A stretch of DNA of 64,000 nt. Origin: Tribonema minus (Eukaryota; Sar; Xanthophyceae; Tribonematales; Tribonemataceae). Below, piece after piece: positions 16,556-38,519 of this stretch. Position 1 is the first letter of the stretch; every line of letters starts with the position of its first letter. Location of the stretch: NCBI GenBank assembly GCA_017506865.1, contig JAFCMP010000512.1, positions 62,001 through 126,000 of the forward strand. The letters are read 5' to 3'. The position numbers and the translations under genes were made by a program. The notes below the pieces were generated by a model, which saw nothing but the letters and a program-made list of their open reading frames with translations, made no database searches and was not told the DNA's origin.

Positions 16556-19500
16556 ATGAGCGTGCTGAACCCCACCACGACGGAGCTGCGTGGTGCCTAC
16601 AGCAAGCTGCAGCTGGAGCGGAAGGCCAGCAAATGCATAAAGCCCAACTGTGTCACCTCAAGCCTTGGGCTGCGGTTGGTAAGTCTCACTTGGCTGAAAG
16701 CATGCGCTTGCCCTCATGCGGCTTGCGCGCTGCCACAATGAGTGCCGTGTTACAAAACGTAATTTTCACCACGCATTATCGTAGCTTTGTGCGACCGCCG
16801 TCTACCAAGCTGTGTGGATCTTTTGTGTGGATCCAAGCCAAGAGCCGCGAAGCCTGCACGGTTCGGTTCAGCACCACCAACCCCGTGTTGGTGTGTCAGC
16901 ATGCAATAGTAGCTGAAGCTATGCCGCGTATCACGCGACGTCGCTGCTCCATGACAGGTCGAGAAGGAGGCGCTCGGAGCCAAAGATCACCATGAACGCG
17001 TCCAGGCTCTGTTTCCCAAGACGTACGGCCTGCCGCGCGTGGAGCTGGAGATTGGCACGGAGGCTGACGTCGTGAACGCTCCTCTGAGGATCGGCGTCGT
17101 CTTGAGTGGTGGGCAGGCGCCGGGGGGGCACAATGTGATCGCGGGTGTCTTCGACTACGCCATGAGGTGCAGCCCAGATTCGAAGGTGTTCGGGTTCCTC
17201 AACGGTCCGCACGGGGTCATGAATGGCATCTTCTGCGAGGTGAGTGTGGTGATACACGAGGCGCTGGTCAGCACCGTATCATGGTGCGGCAGTGCACGTG
17301 TGCAGCTCGCAAATCTCGTGAATTGATTGACGAATGCACTTCGGAAATCGATTGGGGAATGCAGTGTGCTGCCTCGATGGAAGGTTGATGTGCAGCTCAC
17401 AGCAGCAGCGTGCAACGGAATGCATGCATGCGGTGAAGAAGCGTAGACATGGCGCTCGTTTCGGCTGCATCTTACGCCTTGACCAGAGTCCCGGGACAAT
17501 GCTTTGGCACAAAGATTCACACCGGTTCAGCCTGTCTTTGAGAGCCAATTGTGTCGTTGGAAATCAGTCCATTGACCATGTGTAATTTTGAAGGCCAGCA
17601 ACGCCTCCTGTCATCGCCCCTGTACCGTCCGCACAGTTTTGTCATTGGAAATCAACTAGAAGCTCTTCACAAAGTACTTCGGAAGCACTATAGTCTTGAA
17701 GGCTGGCAACAACTCCTCTCATTCTTTCCCCCCCGTGCCCCCCCTCGCCCAACAGATCGACGCGGAGATCATGGCGCACTACCGTAACACGGGCGGCTTT
17801 AACATTCATTGTAAATCAAAATCAACTAATTGTGTCTCCAAATGCCGGCGATGACTCCTGCCAGCGCGCCGTCCGCAAGAAATGCCCAAGGAAATCAACC
17901 AACATCGTCTTGATGGTCGGCGACGCGCCTCCTGTCACTGCCGCCCCGCAGATCGACGCGGAGATCATGGCGCACTGCTCCAACACGGGCGGCTTCGACA
18001 TGCAAGTTGATTGAATATACCAATATTTGGCTTCGACATGCTTGTCAATTGAATAAACTAACATTCTCTTCAGAGGTGACAACACCCCCATTCATCCCCC
18101 CCCCCCCCCCTCTGGTGCCCTCAGATCGACACCGAGATCATGGCGCACTACCGCAACACGGGCGGCTTCGACATGCTGGGCAGCGGCCGCGACAAGATTG
18201 AGAGCGAGGCGCAGATGGCGTCCTCCATGGCCGTCGCAACGGAGATGCGCCTCGACGGCCTCATCGTCATCGGCGGCGACGACTCCAACACCAACGCGGC
18301 GATACTCGCGGAGTACTTCGCCGCGAACGGCTGCACGACGCGCGTGTGCGGGTGCCCCAAGACGATCGACGGCGACCTGAAGAACGAGTACATACCGATA
18401 TCGTTCGGCTTCGACACGGCCGCCAAGACGTTCAGCGAGGAGATCGGGAACGTCGCGCTCGACACGCTCGCCAGCCAGAAGTACTACCACTTCATCAGGT
18501 GACGCTCACTTTCATATTTATATATAGCCATATATTTATGATTTTTCGCATGCACAATCTTCATATTTACGATTTGGTCGCTTCGGCAGTCGGCGCACGC
18601 CTGCGTAGCTGACGTGTGAGCCACTACCACTTCATCGGGTGAGCGCCGCGCGCGCCCCGCCTGCATTTGTTGTAGACAGACAAGACAGCGTACACCAAAA
18701 CTTCACAAGGTTTAAATCTTGAACTTGCGCTTGTTGATCGTCTCACAAAGATGCATCAGCTGTAAGTGTGTGCTTGCTGTCTACACCAGGATGCAGCGCA
18801 CGTGTAGTGTAGTACATGTAGTCTGTGTGTGAGTTGTGAAGCAGGGCGCGCACGCGGCGGAGCGGCAGCGCTTGCAGGCACACAGCTGCCTTGCTCCTCG
18901 CTTGTGTCTTTGGAAGAGCTCACTGGGCTTGACAGTGGCTTGGCTGACATGATCTTTGCTGTGCTTTGTTGATGTGTTCTGGCGGTGCGCGTGGCGATGG
19001 ACAGCGCAGGCTGATGGGGCGCGCGGCGAGCGACACTGCTAACACGATGCTCAACGTCCTCGTGTGTGTGTACGTGTGTAATTTATGATGCGCGTGGCGA
19101 TGGGCGGCGCAGCTAACACGATGCTCGATGCCCTTCTATGTGTGTGTGTGTGTGTTTTGTGGTGCACGCGGTGCAGGCTCATGGGGCGTGCGGCGAGCAA
19201 CATAGCGCTGGAGTGCGCGCTGCAGACGCGGCCCAACGTGTGCCTCATCTCGGAGGAGGTCGAGGCCAAGGGCATGAACCTGCTGCAGATCACCAATGAC
19301 ATTGCCGACATGGTGAGTGAGGCCATAAAATCACAGATGTGAATATATATACAAGTGTAAGTGATTTCATGAATCTGAATTCACACAGGGTCATCTGTAA
19401 AGGGCATGCAGATCACCAATGATACTGCCGACATGATCATTGAGACCATGAAATCACACATGTGAATCCATGAATGCACGAGCGCGAGTGCCATGAAACT

Positions 19501-38519: not shown

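Follow-up and report, generated by a model that had tools for sequence, protein, structure and literature searches.

Decayed tandem copies of exon edges in the introns of a two-domain phosphofructokinase gene

A PFP-type phosphofructokinase gene with 19 exons

The window analyzed here (the whole 64-kb stretch of DNA) carries on its plus strand, at 16556-38519, a gene coding for a PFP-type two-domain phosphofructokinase (hereinafter PFP) with 19 exons and a product of 1187 aa. The exon model was assembled by hand from the sequence as follows:

Exons 1-5, plus strand: 16556-16678, 16958-17239, 18125-18498, 19177-19312, 20079-20327
Exons 6-10, plus strand: 20941-21183, 22017-22144, 22859-23132, 24299-24364, 25688-25837
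Exons 11-15, plus strand: 27477-27631, 28946-29210, 29812-29991, 31575-31700, 32892-33011
Exons 16-19, plus strand: 35533-35675, 36340-36496, 37400-37563, 38291-38519

The splice junctions are GT-AG throughout, the frame is open over all 1187 codons, and the reading frame requires no additional spliced intron. The Pfam PFK domain matched two stretches of the protein, and a search with its first half (603 residues) recovered the pyrophosphate-dependent phosphofructokinase of PDB entry 1kzh (E-value 1.9e-154, residues 39-539). As this alignment spans the joints of exons 1-8, it supports those exon calls; the later exons were called on the basis of the open frame, splice sites, coding score, and the likeness between the two halves of the gene. 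The gene is thus an intron-rich fusion that places two PFK domains in a single chain. A chained gene finder reduced the whole window to a single spurious gene on each strand and was discarded in favor of single-exon scoring.

Upstream, on the minus strand, lies an apparently intronless DsbD/CcdA-like gene (15485-16417; Pfam DsbD_TM) with an AFAP motif in the N-terminal region of its product; we take this motif to point to a red-type secondary plastid, and an alga with such a plastid is a possible source of the DNA. Scans of viral_contigs with the PFP, MFS, and DsbD protein sequences found no relatives. Downstream, the repeat-filled PFP gene adjoins about 15 kb (38600-53500) with an almost zero coding score and few tandem repeats. 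The low coding scores and the Pfam results suggest that 38.6-53.5 kb is non-coding: of 10 ORFs searched in 42.2-54.5 kb, 8 matched nothing, 1 gave only sub-threshold matches, and 1, at the right end, was the GT64 gene.

PFP introns contain extra copies of the adjacent exon edges

The initial annotation, made from the letters alone, had claimed that decayed copies of the neighboring exon edge, one to four in number and with the splice site included, occur in nearly all long PFP introns. Each of the 36 internal PFP edges served as a query (20 intron bases plus at most 100 exon bases) for alignment to its own intron, with the live intron bases excluded. At a score of at least 18, this recovered 41 direct extra copies, derived from 22 of the 36 edges and distributed over 15 of the 18 introns, in agreement with that claim. 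Of the 41 copies, 22 derive from an acceptor edge (13 of the 18 acceptors) and 19 from a donor edge (9 of the 18 donors), with 1-4 copies per edge; the splice dinucleotide lies within the alignment in 39 of the 41, and the exon part measures 9-95 nt. Introns 1, 8, and 16 held no copy of their own exon edges at this score. All the copies lie on the plus strand:

Intron 2, exon 3 acceptor edge, two copies (+): 17739-17805, 17945-18003
Intron 3, exon 3 donor edge, one weak copy, score 18.5 (+): 18623-18646
Intron 3, exon 4 acceptor edge, one copy (+): 19006-19035
Intron 4, exon 4 donor edge, two copies, both without GT (+): 19407-19455, 19503-19572
Intron 4, exon 5 acceptor edge, one copy with 14 exon bases (+): 19918-19949
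Intron 5, exon 6 acceptor edge, two copies (+): 20568-20643, 20702-20774
Intron 6, exon 7 acceptor edge, one copy (+): 21778-21860
Intron 7, exon 7 donor edge, two copies (+): 22234-22258 (weak), 22479-22509
Intron 9, exon 10 acceptor edge, one copy, short unit with a lag of 74 (+): 25594-25644
Intron 10, exon 10 donor edge, four copies (+): 25972-26024, 26118-26168, 26303-26356, 26478-26532
Intron 11, exon 11 donor edge, two copies (+): 27748-27777, 28143-28190
Intron 11, exon 12 acceptor edge, two copies (+): 28482-28565, 28707-28775
Intron 12, 3′ part of exon 12, one copy, lag 123, junction outside the alignment (+): 29265-29308
Intron 12, exon 13 acceptor edge, two copies (+): 29495-29538, 29645-29721
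Intron 13, exon 13 donor edge, three copies (+): 30191-30242, 30377-30402, 30543-30563
Intron 13, exon 14 acceptor edge, three copies (+): 31023-31066, 31192-31248, 31376-31425
Intron 14, exon 15 acceptor edge, two copies (+): 32609-32646 (weak), 32740-32805
Intron 15, exon 15 donor edge, two copies (+): 33174-33234, 33396-33462
Intron 15, exon 16 acceptor edge, one copy (+): 35340-35381
Intron 17, exon 17 donor edge, two copies, both without GT (+): 36568-36655, 36701-36780
Intron 17, exon 18 acceptor edge, two copies (+): 37033-37112, 37183-37281
Intron 18, exon 19 acceptor edge, two copies (+): 37978-38066 (without the junction), 38115-38219

At a stricter score of at least 22, 21 of the 36 edges were still positive. 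Controls at the score of 18 gave few passes: 8 of 544 for non-adjacent PFP introns, 8 of 612 for 900-nt non-coding segments of 38.7-53.4 kb, and 1 of 36 for the edge's own intron reversed. The intron at the opposite side of the exon yielded 3 passes in 34, all on exons 7 and 15, because the query of these short exons reaches the other edge. A blastn search with whole exons (E≤1e-3) produced 33 matches, all 33 of them direct and 31 within the adjacent intron; the other two were matches of exon 3 to dead copies of exon 12, its paralogue in the other domain. None of the 41 copies comprises a whole exon with both splice sites.

A comparison of edges with exon middles, suggested in the initial annotation, came out with 22 of 36 edges positive and 1 of 24 middle-window/intron combinations reaching 17 (exon 3 against intron 2, score 19.5). 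We rejected it as evidence for an edge bias, since any exon sequence that a tandem copy carries into an intron necessarily comes with the edge, and tandem duplication therefore predicts this outcome in any case. Duplications within exons, for their part, would be selected against.

Sequence features of other kinds also occur in and around these introns. Short telomere-type repeats resembling TTAGGG/CCCTAA are found within introns at 30270-30295, 26853-26875, and elsewhere; long runs of C and G are present (e.g., 36288-36331 and 38565-38590), several of them closely upstream of live or dead acceptors; and intron 15 has one inverted repeat pair.

The copies belong to tandem units that span the exon-intron border

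In self-alignments of PFP, one and the same lag continues through the intron and exon parts of a unit. When the intron parts alone were compared, 27 of 41 neighboring copy pairs matched at p<0.05, compared with 4 of 82 mismatched pairs; at p<0.01 the numbers were 22 and 0. The remaining 14 of the 41 had no intron-part similarity at p<0.05. For this comparison, the junctions were entered by hand, and those of the exon 12 donor copy and the first exon 19 copy were extrapolated. Unit lags have a median of 167 bp (interquartile range 142-196, range 74-404). In our reading, the clearest cases are those where a dead exon piece directly abuts the next intron copy, namely at 21860/21861 (intron 6), 37112/37113 (intron 17), and about 54930 (GT64 gene).

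The breakpoint is often common to the copies of one edge and elsewhere differs (at exon 18, 62 versus 81 exon bases). In the acceptor array of exon 14 (31023-31611), a block of two units is repeated at a lag of 358 with 83% identity; an earlier duplication was here itself duplicated at a later time. The differing breakpoints and this two-unit block together indicate successive rounds of duplication. Similarly, we read the exon 7 acceptor unit as one of about 170 that later grew to 214 via a 45-bp duplication. The breakpoints in the exons lie closer to the edge than uniform placement would have them (mean fraction 0.33, Kolmogorov-Smirnov p=0.007), with selection against long exon pieces being one possible reason. 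By a hand tally, subtraction of the readable unit lags reduces the total PFP intron length from 18400 nt to 9638 nt. The analysis supports the proposal of the initial annotation that these introns were lengthened repeatedly by tandem duplication across the border, with one junction staying live and several others decaying.

The copies appear to decay roughly neutrally

Over their exon parts, the copies are identical to the live exon at 1604 of 1815 positions (88.4%). By codon position, the mismatches number 55/611, 46/602, and 110/602, as expected if about 8% free change on the dead branch is combined with about 10% silent change on the live branch. At the 15 edges with at least two copies, changes could be assigned to one branch or the other: those private to the live exon fall on the three codon positions as 2, 1, and 9, and those private to dead copies as 43, 30, and 55, where composition predicts 42.9, 40.5, and 44.6 (p=0.077; against equal rates, p=0.026). 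Synonymous changes make up 50 of 127 dead-private changes versus 24% at random; composition and changes of the live exon between rounds of duplication, two contributions not separable here, would yield such an excess. A stop or an indel is present in only 14 of the 41 dead exon parts. The splice dinucleotides are retained in 29 of 39 copies, no better than other bases, given that 78% is expected from the 88.4% identity. The PFP edge copies thus appear to decay about neutrally.

Dead sites were expected to score below their live counterparts. Only 14 of 21 dead acceptors and 9 of 18 dead donors did so, and several donors equalled the live site. Measured against the weakest live site, 18 of 21 dead acceptors (for which the bar is low, -3.4) and 12 of 18 dead donors are at least as strong. 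We infer that the spliceosome passes over such sites because none has a matching site with which an exon could be defined.

Edge copies in other genes of the window

The initial annotation had also reported edge copies in the MFS, GT64, and minus-strand BRCT genes. Testing of 10 edges of four non-PFP genes found strong copies at 3 and a weak one at 1, the other 6 having none:

MFS acceptor 9024 (exon 9024-10031), plus strand: one strong copy, 8845-8939
BRCT acceptor 13613 (exon 13419-13613), minus strand: two strong copies, 13740-13823 and 13932-14015
GT64 acceptor 55063 (exon 55063-55365), plus strand: one strong copy, 54850-54929
Donor 139, probably of an ALDH gene, plus strand: weak copy, 406-441, score 19.5 (shuffle maximum 17.5)

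The three named genes were thus each borne out at one acceptor, with 4 strong copies in all.

Local tandem copies are concentrated in PFP introns

We surveyed local repeats in a manner independent of the exon parts by cutting the sequence into 90-nt tiles and searching for a copy within 700 nt at a score of at least 20, after masking both the exons and the dead pieces of exon; tiles masked over more than 35% were excluded, which removed 4 of the 36 at edges and 22 of the 139 in intron interiors. A local copy was found for 12 of 32 tiles beside PFP edges and 24 of 117 in the intron interior, whereas 38.6-53.5 kb yielded 3 of 166 and other non-coding DNA 0 of 115 (in total, 36/149 for PFP introns versus 3/281 for other non-coding DNA; edge tiles versus 38.6-53.5 kb, p=1e-8). 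Hence, within the 64-kb window, local repeats are concentrated in PFP introns; as the set of 115 tiles probably includes the MFS introns (6.9-8.5 kb), the statement is limited to those of PFP. Between edge and interior tiles, the difference is about twofold (p=0.06 at a score of 20, p=0.41 at 22).

A count of arrays by hand gave 22 that cross an edge and 2 (or 4) that do not, the difference arising from the upstream repeats of introns 9 and 15, which are edge arrays in one tally and interior arrays in the other. Under random placement in the collapsed introns, with a correction for interior arrays being less visible, the probability of such a count is 5e-5 for 22/24 and 7e-4 for 22/26; if the introns once had half the collapsed length, it is 0.04 for 22/24. 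The visibility factor of 0.59 reflects our reading that 13 of 22 edge arrays are visible from their intron parts alone. Arrays and unit lengths were entered by hand, and the counts depend on hand-read boundaries. Left out of the interior arrays were short-unit repeats with lags of 21-79 bp (at 21899, 22521, 28353, 30317, 32004, and 33501) as well as two pairs, one at 17583 (lag 108, marginal) and the other at 33914 (lag 602); the short unit of the exon 10 acceptor was nonetheless counted as an edge array. A further bias toward exon edges within the introns is accordingly likely, if not proven, and depends on these assumptions and on the threshold.

The clearest exception to the edge rule is a long-unit array in intron 8 (23747-24245, lags 212-256) with no recognizable exon edge. 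The short tandem repeats reported by TRF in PFP introns (periods 21-58 bp; 21899, 22521, 30317, and 33501) do not cross an edge, and similar ones occur outside PFP. Two-copy tandem duplications with units of 42-64 bp and 92-96% TRF matches are present both inside and outside introns (40512-40640, 11919-12000, and 22521-22635).

Serial duplication across borders as the probable explanation, and its alternatives

Serial tandem duplication, at the level of DNA, across exon-intron borders very probably explains the edge copies. A segment lying partly in an exon and partly in the neighboring intron, usually about 120-250 bp long, would be duplicated head to tail, often repeatedly at the same edge. 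The copy adjoining the complete exon would stay live, and the other, comprising one splice site and an exon piece, would be buried in the intron and decay. With the buried copy lying inside the intron, the protein would remain unchanged and the intron would become longer by one unit, and purifying selection would presumably remove duplications falling inside exons. The PFP copies display the direct tandem arrangement, the union of intron and exon in one unit, the lack of any whole-exon copy, and the near-neutral decay.

It seems improbable that the copies are instead alternative edges or exons that work, or recently worked, under selection. The synonymous excess (50/127 versus 24%) and the many dead sites matching or exceeding the weakest live one (18/21 acceptors, against the low bar, and 12/18 donors) would fit such a role; against it, the exon part never exceeds 95 nt and in no copy amounts to a complete exon, the splice dinucleotides (29/39) are kept no better than other bases, and the codon-position counts of dead-private changes fit composition (p=0.077). 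We give very little credence to an introner or another mobile element inserted at splice borders, to which the involvement of the borders of many introns in one gene might have pointed: the copies derive from the adjacent edge only, and sequence common to different PFP introns at E≤1e-2 is confined to 5 distant pairs, all of them exonic and due to paralogy. The suggestion in the initial annotation of a kind of element is therefore not supported, every copy being local. An assembly artefact from collapsed or misjoined reads is likewise highly implausible, for 211 of 1815 positions in the exon parts are changed relative to the live exon, in a pattern that follows codon position, and the phenomenon recurs in at least three other genes and on both strands.

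What remains to be weighed is whether borders are favored by the duplication process itself. Duplications of this size could quite conceivably, at somewhat under even chances, land at random, with those at edges being conspicuous by virtue of their conserved exon partner and of introns that were once short. The twofold, threshold-dependent difference between edge and interior tiles is in keeping with such an absence of bias, as is the probability of 0.04 obtained with half-length introns; the near-lack of repeat tiles outside PFP (3/166 and 0/115), with exon parts masked everywhere, and the values of 5e-5 and 7e-4 from collapsed lengths with visibility correction speak against it. If there is a bias, its cause is perhaps breaks linked to transcription or replication. 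As a more tentative proposal, tandem duplications of about 170 bp, a length that may correspond to one nucleosome repeat, might in this lineage have mutational hotspots at the exon-intron borders of transcribed genes, perhaps by way of transcription, R-loops, or replication conflict. Introns would then lengthen and be renewed starting at their borders, and intergenic DNA would not. Were this so, each array would constitute a natural experiment in splice choice, in which good-looking dead sites are ignored.

Implications and relationship to known systems

Intron length is usually put down to transposons, to slippage on a small scale, and to how such gains balance against deletion. By our hand tally, about half of the PFP intron sequence is traceable to local tandem units, most of which cross exon borders. 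If general, serial duplication across borders would be a mode of intron growth that leaves dated fossils in the form of dead junctions; it would also supply cryptic splice sites and offer a natural test of the choice that splicing makes among near-identical junctions.

In tandem exon duplication, exon sequence is duplicated beside the original; unlike in such tandem (mutually exclusive) exons, the PFP copies never comprise a whole exon (0/41) and are decaying. Introners (PMC9860276, PMC7789003) likewise represent a mass change of a genome's introns; however, they are dispersed families of similar introns, whereas the PFP copies stay close to their source and those of different introns are unlike one another. 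A dispersed family of similar introns was not found in PFP, where the 5 distant repeat pairs all reflect exon paralogy.

That introns can arise by tandem duplication is well documented (reviewed in PMC3443670, citing Gao and Lynch 2009 and Hellsten 2011). Such within-gene duplication resembles the process proposed here in supplying duplicated splice sites; there, an exonic segment is duplicated and a new intron results, whereas in PFP the segment straddles an existing border and the intron becomes longer. Closest is the potato RdRp gene (PMC4974935), in which one tandem duplication across an intron-exon border created a new intron. The PFP copies are similarly direct and adjoin their source; yet, in place of a single event, there are 41 copies from 22 edges, on both donor and acceptor sides, and existing introns have been lengthened. 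Among the titles listed by literature searches that covered few subscription papers, none described mass duplication of exon edges or its role in intron length. As far as these sources go, border-crossing tandem duplication itself is already known (PMC4974935), and the novelty of the PFP gene lies in the scale of the process and in the lengthening of its introns.
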